Part shown: in pieces, positions 51,225-58,506 of the stretch
Numbering within the stretch: position 1 is the first letter of the stretch
Layout of the letters: each line of letters opens with the position of its first letter
Origin: Erysipelotrichaceae bacterium
GTDB taxonomy: Bacteria; Bacillota_I; Bacilli_A; Erysipelotrichales; Erysipelotrichaceae
Direction: 5' to 3'
Length of the DNA: 64,000 nt
NCBI GenBank assembly: GCA_029974225.1
Contig: JARKSP010000008.1
Location: forward strand, 62,001-126,000
Notes under the pieces: generated by a model
Databases searched by the model: none
Told to the model about the DNA's origin: nothing
Seen by the model: the letters and a program-made list of their open reading frames with translations, nothing else
Made by a program: the position numbers and the translations under genes

Positions 51225-51718
51225 TGGTTGAAGCTGTATTTACTTTCTTTAGTGCTTTGGGAAGTGAATTCGCCCTGTTTATGATTTCTATGATTCCTCT
51301 TATTGAATTAAGAGGAGCGATTATCTTTGCTTCGGCTATCGGTTTTCCCTGGTACAAAGCTTTACCCATCTGTATTATTTCAAATATGCTCCCGGTTCCC
51401 TTTTTACTGATTTTCGGAATGAAAATTGTAAAATATTTAAAGAAGACTAAACTTTTTGGTCCTTTCTTTACTAAATACGAAGAGAAACTGCATACCAAAA
51501 GTGCAGAGGTTGAAAAATATGGTTTTTTCGCCTTGACAGTTTTTGTTGGTCTTCCCGTGCCAGCTACCGGAGCCTGGAGTGGGTCGCTGGTAGCGACAAT
51601 TCTGCAGTTTGATTTTAAAAAGGCTTTGCTGTCAATATTTCTGGGAGTTTGTGTTGCAGCAATTATTATGACTCTTGCCTGTTATGGTGCTTTCGGGTTT
51701 TTAAGATTGTTTGTTTAG
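51224..51718 (+). CDS. COG2426-like small multidrug export family membrane protein
   Basis: 164 aa; MIPLIELRGAIIFASAIGFPWYKALPICIISNMLPVPFLLIF, GLPVPATGAWSGSLVATIL. Confidence 0.85.
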   Translation: MVEAVFTFFSALGSEFALFMISMIPLIELRGAIIFASAIGFPWYKALPICIISNMLPVPFLLIFGMKIVKYLKKTKLFGPFFTKYEEKLHTKSAEVEKYGFFALTVFVGLPVPATGAWSGSLVATILQFDFKKALLSIFLGVCVAAIIMTLACYGAFGFLRLFV

Positions 51719-51767
51719 AAGACTTAAATCAGGTCTTCTTTTCTTATATAATGAGGTTGGTGATTTT

Positions 51768-52253
51768 ATGAGAGTTGTTTGTTTTGAAAAAGCCCATGAA
51801 GAAAATGGCTATTTAAGTGTCTGGTATCCCTGCAGCTTCTTTTTGGATGGCTACAAGTTCTGGTGTGTTGAACAATATCTGCAGTATCGCAAGGCTGTGA
51901 TGTTTAATGATGATTATCGCGCTGATAAGCTTTTATACGCCAAGGATAGAGAAGATATCATCAAATACAGCAAAGGCACTGTCAATTATGTTGATAAAGT
52001 ATGGAACGCCCGCCGACACATCAACCTGTATAAGGCCAATTATGCTAAATTTTCACAGAATCAGAAGCTTAAAGACCTTCTTTTGGCTACCGAAGATATT
52101 TGCCTGGCCAAATGCGGTAAAACAGATAAGGTATGGGGTACAGGTCTAAACTATGGTGACACCAGGCTTTATAATCTTTCCCGCTGGGAAGGACTCAATC
52201 TGCATGGTTTTGCCTTAATGGAAGTCAGAGATACTCTAAAAAAAGAAGCCTGA
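51768..52253 (+). CDS. NADAR family protein
   Basis: ORF 51711..52253, ATG 51768; YLSVWYPCSFFLDGYKFWCVEQYLQYRKAVMF, VWGTGLNYGDTRLYNLSRWEGLNLHGFALMEVR. Confidence 0.87.
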   Translation: MRVVCFEKAHEENGYLSVWYPCSFFLDGYKFWCVEQYLQYRKAVMFNDDYRADKLLYAKDREDIIKYSKGTVNYVDKVWNARRHINLYKANYAKFSQNQKLKDLLLATEDICLAKCGKTDKVWGTGLNYGDTRLYNLSRWEGLNLHGFALMEVRDTLKKEA

Positions 52254-52693: not shown

Positions 52694-53539
52694 GTGTTTA
52701 TGTTCCCATTAATCTTACAATCCGATTTTGGCAGAGCTGATGGCGCAGTCAGTGCCATGTATGGCGTTGCCTGTACTGTTGCTCCAGCTATCAGAATTTA
52801 TGATTTAACTCATGATATTCCCCAATACGACATCTGGGAAGCCAGCTATCGTCTGATTCAGACTATTAACTATTGGCCAAAGGGCAGTGTTTTTGTTTCG
52901 GTTGTCGACCCGGGAGTGGGCAGTGAAAGAAAATCGCTGGTGGTTAAAGCCAATAATGATACCTATGTGGTTACTCCCGATAATGGCACACTTACTCATA
53001 TTAAAAGGATTCTGGGAATAAAAGAAGCCCGGATTCTCGATGAAGAAATTAACAGGCTGCCAAATTCCGGAGAAAGTTATACCTTCCATGGCCGTGATAT
53101 TTATGCCTATACGGGAGCCCGACTGGCTTGTGGTCTTATTTCCTTTGAGGATGTTGGCCCTTTATATGATGTCGATAGCGTCGTCGAGCTGCCGGTATCA
53201 AGACCATCTATTGAAAATGATGTTATTTCAGGTTCAATTGATGTCCTGGATGTCAGATATGGTTCACTGTGGACCAATATACCTCGCAGACTGTTCAGAC
53301 AATTGGGTATTGGTATTTCAGATAAAGTAGAGGTCACAATTTCAAATAATACCCGAACCATCTATAGTAACGTTCTGGTTTATGCCAGAAGTTTTGCTGA
53401 TGTCAATGTTGGTGAATCTTTGCTTTATGTTAATTCTTTAGATTGTGTAGCAATTGCTATCAATCAGGGCAGTTTTGCCAAAGCCTATAACATCGGGACA
53501 GGTATTAACTGGAAGATTAAACTCAGAAAATCTGCTTGA
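52694..53539 (+). CDS. SAM hydroxide adenosyltransferase family protein (DUF62), copy 1
   Basis: 281 aa; LQSDFGRADGAVSAMYGVA, VFVSVVDPGVGSERKSLVV, TPDNGTLTHI, FHGRDIYAYTGARLA. Confidence 0.9.
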   Translation: MFMFPLILQSDFGRADGAVSAMYGVACTVAPAIRIYDLTHDIPQYDIWEASYRLIQTINYWPKGSVFVSVVDPGVGSERKSLVVKANNDTYVVTPDNGTLTHIKRILGIKEARILDEEINRLPNSGESYTFHGRDIYAYTGARLACGLISFEDVGPLYDVDSVVELPVSRPSIENDVISGSIDVLDVRYGSLWTNIPRRLFRQLGIGISDKVEVTISNNTRTIYSNVLVYARSFADVNVGESLLYVNSLDCVAIAINQGSFAKAYNIGTGINWKIKLRKSA

Positions 53540-53564
53540 CATAAAATGCTTTACTCAATAAAAT
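53536..53564 (+). promoter_or_regulatory. Sigma-A-like promoter TTGACA-N17-TAAAAT overlapping the stop codon of DUF62 copy 1
   Basis: -35 53536-53541, -10 53559-53564, 17-bp spacer. Confidence 0.75.
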
Positions 53565-53570
53565 AAATCC

Positions 53571-53627
53571 ATAAGGGGATATGTTGATTTATTAAATGAC
53601 ATCCTTTGTGGATGTCGTTTTATATTT
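53571..53627 (+). promoter_or_regulatory. Candidate transcription attenuator in the leader of the ECF transporter operon
   Basis: Predicted RNA start near 53571; terminator hairpin GACATCC-tttg-TGGATGTC then TTTTATATTTT at about 53598-53627; upstream GGATATGT (53577-53584) can compete for ACATCC. Confidence 0.55.
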
Positions 53628-53679
53628 TGGGCAATTACACTATTGTGTTAATTATATTGCAGGAAAAAAGGAGAAATAT

Positions 53680-54258
53680 ATGAAGAAAGAAAGTATTGGA
53701 AAAATTTTATTAGGAAAATGGGACACTAAGACTATTGTTGGTGTAGCTATTGGGATTGCTTTATTTGCTGTATTAATGGTTTATGGCTCAATTAAAGTAT
53801 TCACTAACACTAACCTGTCACTAGCTATGATTGTTCCTGTTATCGTTGGCGGATTATTTGGACCACTGCCTGCGGCTTTAGTTTGCGGATTGGGTAACGT
53901 TTTGGCTGACCTGATTGGGGGCTGGGGCTTATGGTTCGACTGGTCAATCGGTAATGCTGCATTAGGTTTTATCGTCGGCTGTTTAAAACTATATGGTGCC
54001 GATATTGAAGACGGGGTCTTTGATATTAAGCATATGGTTATCTATGCTGTATTAGCTGTATTAGGCAACATCCTGGCATTTGGCGTTATCACTCCAATAT
54101 TCACTAAAATCCTGTTTGGCGGAGAGTTAAACATCACAATCGCTCAAGGCTGGTTTGCTGCTGTCTCTAACGCTACAGTATTAATCATTGCTGGTATTCC
54201 TATCTTAAAAGCTTTAGCAGCTAGAAACGCTCGTGGCAAAAACTTAACAAAAGAATAA
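53680..54258 (+). CDS. ECF transporter S component (UPF0397-like)
   Basis: ORF 53596..54258, ATG 53680 after AAAGGAG; VIVGGLFGPLPAALVCGLGNVLADLIGGWGLWFDWSIGNAALGFIVG. Confidence 0.85.
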   Translation: MKKESIGKILLGKWDTKTIVGVAIGIALFAVLMVYGSIKVFTNTNLSLAMIVPVIVGGLFGPLPAALVCGLGNVLADLIGGWGLWFDWSIGNAALGFIVGCLKLYGADIEDGVFDIKHMVIYAVLAVLGNILAFGVITPIFTKILFGGELNITIAQGWFAAVSNATVLIIAGIPILKALAARNARGKNLTKE

Positions 54259-54259
54259 T

Positions 54260-55972
54260 ATGTCAAAATCGCCTATTATTGAATTTAAAGACTTCACGTT
54301 TAGATATAGCTCTCAACTTGAACCGACTTTAAAGAATATAAACTTAACAATATATGAGGGGGAAAAAGTGCTTATTTTAGGACCGAGCGGGTGCGGAAAA
54401 AGTACTTTAGCCAATTGTATTAATGGCTTGGTTCCCTTCTCATATCCAGGCGAAATTCAAGGATCTTGTAAAATTGCTGGAACTGAGACCTCATCTTCTA
54501 GCATTTTTAATTTAAGTGCTGTTGTTGGTACAGTACTTCAGGATTCTGACGCTCAGTTTGTTGGTTTATCTGTCGGTGGAGATATTGCTTATGCACTGGA
54601 AAACGATAATATGCCACGAGAGGAAATGCTTCCACGTGTATTAAACTCTGCAACCCTTGTCGGTATGCATGAATTCTTAGAACATGTTCCTTACAACCTT
54701 TCCGGTGGACAGAAACAACGTGTTTCTTTAGCCGGTATTATGCATGATCATGTCAAGGTTCTTCTTTTCGACGAACCGTTAGCTGCTCTTGACCCTCAGA
54801 TGGGTAATCAGGCTATTGATCTGATTGATCAGATTCAAAAGAACAATAACTGTACTGTTGTTATTATCGAACACCGCCTAGAAGATGTCTTATATCGTCC
54901 TGTTGATAGAATAATTCTGTTAGAGGATGGACAGATTGTTGCAGATATGACCCCTAACGAACTGCTTTGTTCAAACATAATAGTTGAAAAAGGCATTAGG
55001 GAACCTCTATATCTGCAAGCCTTAAAGATGGCTGGCTGTAATGTCACGATTGAAGATAATCCCTGCAATGTTTTTGATATTAACCTTGATAAATATAAAG
55101 ATCAGCTGGTATCCTTCTACACTAGCGTAGATACAAGTAAGCCTGTCGAGGAGAAAGAAGTAGTTTTAGAAGTTAAAAATGTTGATTTTTCTTACGACAA
55201 GAAAAAAGCCTTGGATGATGTTTCATTTTCAGTCAATAAAGCCGATAAAATTGCGGTGGTCGGAAAAAACGGCGCCGGAAAATCAACAGCGGCTAAACTT
55301 ATCTGCGGCATCCTTCGTCCTGATAAAGGAAAAGTTCTTTTAGAGGGTGTTGACTATCTCAAATATTCAATCAAAGAACTGGGTCAGAAAATAGGTTATG
55401 TCATGCAGAACCCTAACCAGATGCTGGTTAAAGACATCATCAGGGATGAGGTTTCTCTGGGTTTGGTTCTTAACGGCAAATCTGAAGAAGAAATTGAAAG
55501 AAATATTGAGGAGGCACTGAAAAAATGTGATATCTGGCCAATGAGAAACTGGCCTATTTCAGTTGTCAGCTATGGTCAGAAAAAGCGCGTAACTATCGCT
55601 TCCATTCTGGCAATGAATCCTGAAATCATTCTTTTGGATGAACCAACGGCTGGCCAGGATTATCGTGTCTATACTGAAATAATGTCTTTTCTGGAAACCT
55701 TAAACAGGAATTATGGCATCACCATTCTGTTCATTACTCATGATATGCATCTGGCAATTGAATATACTGATCGAGCAATTGTCTTTGCTGATGGAAAATG
55801 TATTGGCGATGATTCCGTATTCAAGATTTTATCAAATAATGACATTATTGAACAGGCCAATCTGAAGCAGACTTCTCTATATTCTTTAGCTACCAGAATA
55901 GGTCTTAATCCTGAAGACTTTATTGAATCATTTATTGTAGCGGAAAGGAGAAAGCGTCATGAAAAATCTTAA
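54260..55972 (+). CDS. ECF transporter double ATPase (YkoD/CbiO-like fusion)
   Basis: 570 aa; two Walker A (GPSGCGKST, GKNGAGKST), NLSGGQKQRVSLAG and VVSYGQKKRVTIAS signatures, two Walker B. Confidence 0.94.
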   Translation: MSKSPIIEFKDFTFRYSSQLEPTLKNINLTIYEGEKVLILGPSGCGKSTLANCINGLVPFSYPGEIQGSCKIAGTETSSSSIFNLSAVVGTVLQDSDAQFVGLSVGGDIAYALENDNMPREEMLPRVLNSATLVGMHEFLEHVPYNLSGGQKQRVSLAGIMHDHVKVLLFDEPLAALDPQMGNQAIDLIDQIQKNNNCTVVIIEHRLEDVLYRPVDRIILLEDGQIVADMTPNELLCSNIIVEKGIREPLYLQALKMAGCNVTIEDNPCNVFDINLDKYKDQLVSFYTSVDTSKPVEEKEVVLEVKNVDFSYDKKKALDDVSFSVNKADKIAVVGKNGAGKSTAAKLICGILRPDKGKVLLEGVDYLKYSIKELGQKIGYVMQNPNQMLVKDIIRDEVSLGLVLNGKSEEEIERNIEEALKKCDIWPMRNWPISVVSYGQKKRVTIASILAMNPEIILLDEPTAGQDYRVYTEIMSFLETLNRNYGITILFITHDMHLAIEYTDRAIVFADGKCIGDDSVFKILSNNDIIEQANLKQTSLYSLATRIGLNPEDFIESFIVAERRKRHEKS

Positions 55973-56810
55973 TATTATTAATCTGACAAAGGGAGAAACC
56001 TTCCTGCATCAGCTTTCTGGCACCACTAAAGTCCGACTGTTCGCTGTTTTAATGGTTTATGTGACGATGTCGTTTGACTTGCCAATAATCTTACCGTTAT
56101 TTATTGTTACAATTGTTGGCCTAGTTTCACTAAAGCCAAGCTGGAAAGTAATTAAACCTGTTGTTATCTTTGTTGTTGCTATGAATATAGTAAACATCGT
56201 CCTGTTCTGGTTAGCTAATCCGCATTGTGGTTTTGAATACACTGGTGATAAAACTGTCTTATTTGCTTTCACTGATTATCTTGTTGTCACTAAAGGGACT
56301 TTCTGGTACCTGACAGTCAGGCTTTTAAAGATGCTGACTTCCTTTACCACTTCTTTAGTCTTCATCATGTCTATTACTCCAAGTGAGTTAGCTGCCGGCC
56401 TTACTTCATTAGGCCTGCCTTATAAGCTTGGCAGCATTGTTGAACTGGCTTTCAGATATATTCCTGACATTTCTAGAGATTATGAAAACATCTCTATCTC
56501 AATGCAGTGTCGAGGCTTGGAATTAGATGCCAAGAAAATAAAACCCATAGAACGCTTAAAGCAGATGATTATTATTCTGATTCCTTTAATTGTTACTTCG
56601 TTTGATCGCGTTGGCAACATTTCCAATGCTATGGACTTAAGAGGATTTGGAAAAGGGAAACAGAGGTCATATTATTCTGAGTACCCTGAAAGAAGAAACG
56701 ATACAATCTTTAAGGTCATCTACTGTTTAATTGCTCTCTTCTGTGTCTACTATATCGTTTCAGGCCTTATCTCTCCGCGTGATCCTAAAATGTGGATTTA
56801 CTGGAGCTGA
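55959..56810 (+). CDS. ECF transporter T component (CbiQ-like)
   Basis: 283 aa; multiple TM; SISMQCRGLELDAKK and NAMDLRGFGKGK coupling motifs. Confidence 0.93.
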   Translation: MKNLNIINLTKGETFLHQLSGTTKVRLFAVLMVYVTMSFDLPIILPLFIVTIVGLVSLKPSWKVIKPVVIFVVAMNIVNIVLFWLANPHCGFEYTGDKTVLFAFTDYLVVTKGTFWYLTVRLLKMLTSFTTSLVFIMSITPSELAAGLTSLGLPYKLGSIVELAFRYIPDISRDYENISISMQCRGLELDAKKIKPIERLKQMIIILIPLIVTSFDRVGNISNAMDLRGFGKGKQRSYYSEYPERRNDTIFKVIYCLIALFCVYYIVSGLISPRDPKMWIYWS

Positions 56811-56812
56811 TT

Positions 56813-57655
56813 ATGAATTATCCAACCATCGTAATGATGACAGACTTTGGCGCCGACAATATTAGTGCCTGTGCCATGAAAGGTGTCTGTAAAACTGTTT
56901 GTAATGACCTGGTTACTGCTGATCTGACTCATTCAGTTATACCATTCAACACCTGGGAAGCCAGTGCCTACCTTATTTATGTTGAACCTTTCTGGCCTAA
57001 AGGAACTATCTTTGTCAGTGTTGTTGACCCTGGTGTGGGGACGAAAAGAAAAGCCTGTGTTGCCAAACTAAAAGATGGCAATTATGTGGTCACACCAGAT
57101 AATGGCACCTTAACCCATGTCTTCTATGAAATTGGCATACAGGAAGTACGGGAAATTGATGAATCCATCAATCGTTTGCCGGCAACAAAAGACACTTCTG
57201 TTTTTCATGGTCGTGATCTGTTTGCCTACTGTGCTGCCAGATTAGCGGCAAACATTATTTCCTATGAAGAGGTTGGGCCGCTTTATCCGGTTGAAAGCAT
57301 TGTCTTGCATAATACTTTTTATAATCCGGTCATCAGGGAAAATCACATAGAAGGATTGATTACTGCTGTTTTTAAACATTTTGGTAATTTATTTACCAAT
57401 ATTCACTATGAAGACTTCAATAAAGCCGGCTTTAAAGAAGGTGATTATGTTGATGTCAGAATCACTCATAAAGATGAGATTAAATTTAATCAGAAGGTGC
57501 TGTATCAAAAATCGTTTGGCTATGTTGATATTAATCAGCCGATTATATTCAATGGTTCAAACCTGGTAATCTGCCTGGCTTTAAATCAGGGCAGCTTTGC
57601 GGAAGTCTATCAAATATCTTCTGGTATGGATTGGAGGGTTGAGTTTAAAAAATGA
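56813..57655 (+). CDS. SAM hydroxide adenosyltransferase family protein (DUF62), copy 2
   Basis: ORF 56792..57655, ATG 56813; MMTDFGADNISACAMKGV, YVEPFWPKGTIFVSVVDPGVGTKRKACVA, FHGRDLFAY. Confidence 0.9.
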   Translation: MNYPTIVMMTDFGADNISACAMKGVCKTVCNDLVTADLTHSVIPFNTWEASAYLIYVEPFWPKGTIFVSVVDPGVGTKRKACVAKLKDGNYVVTPDNGTLTHVFYEIGIQEVREIDESINRLPATKDTSVFHGRDLFAYCAARLAANIISYEEVGPLYPVESIVLHNTFYNPVIRENHIEGLITAVFKHFGNLFTNIHYEDFNKAGFKEGDYVDVRITHKDEIKFNQKVLYQKSFGYVDINQPIIFNGSNLVICLALNQGSFAEVYQISSGMDWRVEFKK

Positions 57656-58506
57656 AACCAAATATTGTCTGGCAGACCGACTTCAGCTTAACCTGGGGAG
57701 CAGTAAGCAGTATGCGTGGCGTTGTTAAACAGGTCGACCGTGAGCTGGAGTGTTATGACATCACTCACGATATTGAACAGTTCAATGTCCTGGCGGCTTC
57801 AAGAGAGCTGATGTATGTTGAACCCTTCTGGCCTAAAGGAACTATCTTTGTCAGCGTTGTTGATCCGGGGGTTGGCACACCAAGAAAAGCCTGTGTCGCT
57901 CTATTGAATGACGGCAACTATGTAGTTACACCTGATAACGGAACTTTAACCCATTTGTTTTATAATGTTGGAATTAGAGAAGTTAGAGAAATTGATACCA
58001 CTGTCAACCGCTATAAAGGAACTGAAGATGTATCAGTTTTCCATGGTCGTGATATCTTTGCCTACACTGCTGCCAGGCTGGCCAGCGGAATAATTTCCTT
58101 TGAGCAGGTTGGAGCAAGTTATCCGGTAGAAGAAATCGTTGTTGAAGATTACATCTATTTAAGAGCAAAGGTTGCTGATAATAATATCAAAGGAATTGTC
58201 ACCAGTGTTTCAGATCCTTTCGGTTCTATTATCTTCAATGTTCTGACAAAAGACTTTAATCAGGTTGGCTACAGTCATGGCGATATTGTCCATGTTGAAA
58301 TCGTTCATAACGATAAAGTCTATTTTAAAGATGATGTTCTATATGAAAAATCATTTGGCTATGTCGACTTAAACAAGCCTGTTCTATACAATTCCAGCAG
58401 TAATTACATCTCTATTGGTTTAAATCAGAATAACTTCCGAGATATCTACCAGATAAAGGATGGTAAAGACTGGCTTGTCAAATTGTCAAAATTAAAAGAA
58501 GATTAA
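57652..58506 (+). CDS. SAM hydroxide adenosyltransferase family protein (DUF62), copy 3
   Basis: 284 aa; WQTDFSLTWGAVSSMRGVV, YVEPFWPKGTIFVSVVDPGVGTPRKACVA, FHGRDIFAY; overlaps copy 2 stop by 4 nt. Confidence 0.9.
   Translation: MKPNIVWQTDFSLTWGAVSSMRGVVKQVDRELECYDITHDIEQFNVLAASRELMYVEPFWPKGTIFVSVVDPGVGTPRKACVALLNDGNYVVTPDNGTLTHLFYNVGIREVREIDTTVNRYKGTEDVSVFHGRDIFAYTAARLASGIISFEQVGASYPVEEIVVEDYIYLRAKVADNNIKGIVTSVSDPFGSIIFNVLTKDFNQVGYSHGDIVHVEIVHNDKVYFKDDVLYEKSFGYVDLNKPVLYNSSSNYISIGLNQNNFRDIYQIKDGKDWLVKLSKLKED

Follow-up and report, generated by a model that had tools for sequence, protein, structure and literature searches.

Three diverged DUF62 genes flank an MtsABC-type ECF transporter in an Erysipelotrichaceae bacterium: a candidate module for SAM salvage

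A cluster of three DUF62 genes arranged around a complete ECF transporter raises two questions at once: what do DUF62 proteins do in cells, and what does the transporter carry? The cluster lies in a 64,000-nucleotide stretch of DNA from an Erysipelotrichaceae bacterium, hereafter called the window. An Asp-Arg-His triad marks DUF62 hydrolases, which convert SAM to methionine and adenosine (PMC10491745, PMC12120602). The StDUF62 enzyme prefers the (R,S)-SAM epimer and is inhibited by moderate salt, and the authors of that 2025 study question whether hydrolyzing SAM is what it does physiologically and suggest that at least some DUF62 proteins have an unknown one (PMC12120602). The transporter is named MtsABC in SEED, where it is described as a ‘methionine-regulated ECF transporter’ (S. 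suis SSUSC84_0347-0348; PMC9423846), and we found no report of the substrate of this transporter in the open-access papers searched. We propose, with a probability of roughly 0.52, that the cluster is a salvage module of the methionine regulon, which would import SAM or a SAM-like adenosyl compound and split it to methionine and adenosine by means of specialized hydrolases.

The gene order given in the first-pass annotation (D1-S-double ATPase-T-D2-D3, all on the + strand) is confirmed by open reading frames and Pfam matches. The features of the cluster are as follows.

52700 to 53539, + strand: D1, DUF62 / SAM hydroxide adenosyltransferase, class A (Pfam, triad, tree)
53536 to 53564, + strand: predicted sigma-70 promoter TTGACA-17-TAAAAT for S-A-T-D2-D3 (11/12 match)
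53594 to 53628, + strand: attenuator-like terminator hairpin (53594-53620) with T-rich tail, in the leader of S
53680 to 54258, + strand: S component, PF07155 / PRK13661 (UPF0397; MtsA-type; profile matches)
54260 to 55972, + strand: A component, fused double ECF ATPase with DUF3744 linker (MtsB-type; profile matches)
55959 to 56810, + strand: T component, CbiQ family (MtsC-type; profile matches)
56813 to 57655, + strand: D2, DUF62, diverged copy with Asn/Phe at the D21/D210 sites and an intact triad
57652 to 58506, + strand: D3, DUF62, diverged copy with Trp/Ser at the D21/D210 sites and an intact triad

All six genes score far above their Pfam cut-offs (SAM_HAT_N and SAM_HAT_C in D1, D2 and D3; PF07155 in S; two ABC_tran domains plus DUF3744 in A; CbiQ in T), and D1, D2 and D3 are the only DUF62 genes in the whole genome. 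The touching or overlapping ends noticed earlier from S onward are also real: S and A are 1 bp apart, A and T overlap by 14 bp, the ATG of D2 lies two bases past the stop codon of T, and D2 and D3 overlap by 4 bp. Three start codons had to be moved on the basis of ribosome-binding sites. D1 most likely begins at the ATG at 52700 rather than at the GTG at 52694, D2 most likely begins at the ATG at 56813, and S begins at the ATG at 53680 rather than at 53596, a position that falls within the terminator hairpin.

The description of the cluster as one operon is sure for S-A-T-D2-D3 and does not extend safely to D1, which is set apart by a 140-bp gap holding the promoter and the hairpin. Because S-A-T-D2-D3 has its own promoter and attenuator-like terminator, D1 may represent a separate unit. 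The three-copy gene order is preserved in four further genomes of the genus (G001, G002, G005 and G006), and therefore the triple arrangement is not an accident of assembly. Just upstream of the cluster is a gene for a NADAR-domain protein (51711-52253 of the window), whose place is occupied by a gene of similar size in G001, G002 and G006.

Alignment reveals D-R-H at the catalytic triad sites of D1, D2 and D3 (D72-R79-H132 in D1, numbered from the GTG at 52694), where fluorinase FlA carries Y-T-Y. As judged from these residues, the three proteins are hydrolase-type, not halogenase-type. Halogenase activity was rejected given the hydrolase triad and scores of 67-100 bits with the fluorinase model TIGR04507, far below its cut-off of 400 bits. 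The NCBIfam cut-offs for (R)-SAM hydrolase equivalogs are likewise missed (best 144, 108 and 100 bits, against 350 for NF058624 and 470 for NF053629), although these models cover narrow groups and their cut-offs bear only on the equivalog claim. PDB 7ccg, a structure from the DUF62/fluorinase superfamily, bears the name ‘DNA-directed RNA polymerase subunit delta’, and so does S. suis SSUSC84_0347, which adjoins MtsA; this label is a propagated misannotation.

The three copies are not equivalent to one another. Identity is 42% between D1 and either of the other two, and 55% between D2 and D3. The positions that match fluorinase Asp21 and Asp210, which we take to be contacts to the methionine part, are occupied by Asp/Asp in D1, by Asn/Phe in D2 and by Trp/Ser in D3. 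In a tree of 79 proteins, D1 falls within a 29-member Asp/Asp clade (SH-aLRT 97), and D2 and D3 fall within another, made up of 43 copies that are mostly diverged (SH-aLRT 99). Class A and other copies were assigned by tree clade and not by the two residues alone; some copies in loci L036, L138 and L140 that have Asp at both sites fall in the diverged clade.

The association of DUF62 genes with this transporter is already known and named in databases, as the first-pass annotation had suspected: it corresponds to MtsABC of SEED. DUF62 genes adjoin this UPF0397-type S-A-T set widely in Bacillota and also beyond (Bacillus, Streptococcus, Enterococcus, Lachnospiraceae, Anaerococcus, Arcanobacterium and others). 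The survey of DUF62/UPF0397 neighbourhoods that the annotation had proposed yields 1 to 6 DUF62 copies per operon, with three as part of the range. Two copies are the norm in the window's family of Erysipelotrichia, where S-A-T-D-D is the typical order and operons hold 2 to 6 DUF62 genes. The emphasis placed on the number of copies is thus only partly justified, and what does stand out is that the copies descend from an old split and stay together. The view that three copies are an oddity of this genome or an artefact of assembly was rejected because the set is conserved in the genus and falls within the range of 1 to 6.

In 45 of the 51 multi-copy operons, one or more class-A copies are accompanied by one or more copies of the other kind; when copies were shuffled among operons 2000 times, such pairs arose in 27.3 operons on average and in 38 at most. 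Shared descent inflates the observed count, but the pairing spans Lachnospiraceae, Clostridiaceae and Erysipelotrichia. Because so many operons pair a class-A gene with a diverged one, the paralogues look specialized (for SAM epimers, for other adenosyl compounds or as mixed trimers) rather than redundant. Seen against these relatives, the present trio varies on a widespread plan and does not simply serve to raise gene dosage. Neither the pairing of diverged paralogues nor the links to guanine and SAM riboswitches described below appear to have been reported in the open-access papers searched.

Additional genes are present in some of these clusters. About a dozen loci carry an M20 peptidase-sized gene between T and D, which was confirmed as an M20-family, dipeptidase-like gene in L036, L041 and L043 and was assigned by size only in L100, L148, L150, L154, L159, L167, L171 and L172. 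The streptococcal methionine ABC operon also includes an M20 peptidase (PMC5359408, PMC2627894). Other clusters contain a GNAT acetyltransferase (L089:8190-8987), a GntR-UTRA regulator (L060:11207-12733) or a fusion of GNAT and GntR-UTRA (L058:10020-11714). One contig (L174; G238:C106) carries the same operon twice in inverted orientation, which is probably a palindromic assembly error.

Control elements in relatives point to the methionine regulon. Met T-boxes immediately precede DUF62 or S in ten loci, eight from Bacilli and two from the window's bacterial family (L068, L069, L071, L074, L076, L084, L105, L124, L190 and L192), and the specifier, read by pattern or by eye, is ATG in 10 of 10. 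A SAM riboswitch precedes a six-copy operon (L187, G178). A guanine-type purine riboswitch (L039:8369-8470, - strand), which carries the C of the guanine class, immediately precedes an S-A-T-DUF62-DUF62 operon in which neither copy is class A (L039/L180, G011). In another locus (L038), metK is found directly 5′ of S-A-T-D-D, with a T-box nearby.

Published cases agree with this pattern. The pneumococcal genes spd-0431 to -0434 are induced without methionine, in a manner that requires CmhR (PMC5359408), and mtsABC of Vibrionales belongs to the MetJ regulon (PMC4239095). As judged by synteny with the flanking Trk genes in L094, spd-0431 to -0434 are the same locus. Upstream of DUF62, a streptococcal CmhR-type site turned up in L094 only, with three mismatches, and not in four other streptococci; it is weak on its own. 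Together, the pneumococcal genes, the MetJ-regulon mtsABC, the T-boxes and the riboswitches count in favor of methionine-regulon salvage.

The window carries a different arrangement at the corresponding position. The strong promoter match at 53536-53564 overlaps the stop codon of D1, and the hairpin at 53594-53620 comes next, before S. Both are preserved in G001, G002 and G006, and the hairpin stem exhibits one double compensatory change within the genus. An Rfam scan revealed no recognized methionine riboswitch in the window, and the leader yielded no Rfam match even with permissive settings. In relatives, this leader position holds a Met T-box or else a SAM or guanine riboswitch, and we therefore read the segment at 53536-53680, in which the promoter is followed by a short hairpin and a terminator just upstream of S, as a candidate attenuator of an uncharacterized kind.

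The metabolism of the host is also consistent with a need for the products of SAM hydrolysis. No match to MetE (PF01717), MetH/MmuM (PF02574) or PurC (PF01259) was found in its own genome, which is ~95% complete. Because these proteins are unmatched, methionine and adenosine, both products of SAM hydrolysis, probably must be obtained from outside. This gut-type bacterium seems unable to make methionine or purines, and the predicted auxotrophies depend on a genome of this completeness. Phosphorylase-family genes (PF01048), which could use adenosine, are present. The sole MetK-like gene found in G000 and in G001 (L196:949-1731, - strand, G000:C84; L208:982-1764, - strand) encodes a compact protein of 260 residues that scores only 32 bits as MetK and retains HPDK and GKDxSK type motifs; G003, G004 and G005 carry a near full-length MetK of about 340 residues.

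The sequences themselves supply the gene content, the intact triads, the conserved linkage and the control elements upstream of relatives. From these we infer the transported compound, the direction of the pathway in vivo and the division of labor among D1, D2 and D3. The ECF transporter (S, double ATPase and T, of MtsABC type) would import SAM or a related adenosyl-sulfonium compound, and the DUF62 enzymes would hydrolyze it to methionine and adenosine, neither of which is apparently made by the organism. D1 might take one SAM epimer, leaving the second epimer, or different adenosyl compounds, to D2 and D3. The idea in the first-pass annotation that an adenosyl-type compound is imported, or that SAM-derived products are scavenged, gains support from the Met T-boxes and the SAM and guanine riboswitches of relatives, from the methionine-starvation control in pneumococcus and from the predicted auxotrophies. 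The stricter proposal, a dedicated uptake system for SAM (adenosyl-sulfonium) whose DUF62 paralogues divide the work by epimer, by substrate or through mixed trimers, is tentative and less likely than not. Counting against SAM import and hydrolysis are the instability of free extracellular SAM, the many DUF62 genes that stand alone without a transporter, and a MetQ-type methionine lipoprotein in the genome, through which methionine can also enter. The lack of a recognized methionine riboswitch in the window, together with the salt sensitivity of StDUF62 and its authors' doubts, weighs in the same direction.

Other explanations assign the transporter a different cargo or the enzymes a different duty. 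If S imports riboflavin, as the names PF07155/PRK13661 say, its link to DUF62 would be incidental, and S indeed matches PRK13661 (‘ECF-type riboflavin transporter’) with 121 bits against a cut-off of 99. However, no FMN riboswitch lies upstream of the S genes scanned, window included, whereas in L094 an FMN riboswitch precedes the gene of another S protein (PF12822) located a few kb from the DUF62-S-A-T set. Moreover, S has no sequence match to solved S components, any RibU included, and the fold nearest to its predicted structure (mean pLDDT 92.5) is that of FolT, with 16% identity, while RibU ranks behind. The riboflavin label was rejected because control elements, sequence and fold are all unsupportive, and riboflavin import is very improbable. 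Regulation and fold therefore speak against placing S, by this label, in a known substrate class unrelated to adenosyl chemistry, an outcome that the first-pass annotation had regarded as damaging. The invariant Asp79, Trp90 and Gln158 and the near-invariant Trp87 of S (194-residue translation) would suit a cationic, aromatic ligand, which is only suggestive.

A stronger competitor, which we nonetheless consider unlikely, is that methionine itself or one of its precursors is the cargo of the transporter and that DUF62 acts on internal SAM only, such that the operon reflects shared regulation and not a shared substrate. DUF62 might then remove the (R,S) epimer, as the preference of StDUF62 would suggest (PMC12120602), or recycle excess SAM to methionine during a methionine shortage. 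Methionine control alone would be enough to group the genes, and stand-alone DUF62 genes without a transporter in Virgibacillus and Thalassobacillus also have Met T-boxes. However, exactly these genes are closely and repeatedly linked, the guanine-type riboswitch of L039 points to a purine-containing product, and one housekeeping reaction needs no several diverged hydrolases per operon. Decidedly less probable, and compatible with SAM salvage, is the formation of mixed trimers by D1, D2 and D3, and by the additional copies of other operons, in which unlike subunits create a new specificity between them or serve structural roles. The active sites of DUF62 and fluorinase proteins lie between protomers of a trimer (PMC12120602), the excess of class-A and non-A pairs over shuffled operons fits such assemblies, and operons with 4 to 6 tandem copies (L135, L139 and L147) include one copy without the catalytic triad, as expected for a non-catalytic subunit. 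Yet homotrimers must be functional, given that operons with one copy are common, and the co-occurrence count is also raised by shared descent.

SAM salvage, if correct, would give DUF62 proteins their first demonstrated physiological role. We know of no ECF transporter for SAM so far, and a dedicated SAM uptake system would be the first. The gene linkage, the control by methionine, SAM and guanine elements and the auxotrophies make SAM salvage one testable answer both for the role of DUF62 and for the substrate of the transporter. The paired paralogues also provide material for studying a stereochemical or substrate-based division of labor in the fluorinase superfamily.

The DUF62 / (R)-SAM hydrolases (StDUF62, PH0463 and 2zbu) have the same two domains and the same Asp-Arg-His triad and align over the full length, whereas D2 and D3 differ from them at the D21/D210-equivalent sites and the genes here are clustered with a transporter. 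Fluorinase FlA and chlorinase SalL belong to the same fold family, and D1 retains Asp at the equivalents of FlA D21 and D210, but the proteins of the window carry a hydrolase triad and lack a halogenase context. The counterpart of the transporter is MtsABC, which shares the UPF0397-type S component, the fused double ATPase with DUF3744 and the CbiQ-type T component; a DUF62 gene adjoins it in Streptococcus, and MtsABC is methionine-controlled. In place of a recognized methionine element, the window has only a promoter and an unassigned attenuator-like hairpin, and in place of the one DUF62 gene of the streptococcal cases it has three, which derive from two old lineages and stand on both sides of the transporter.
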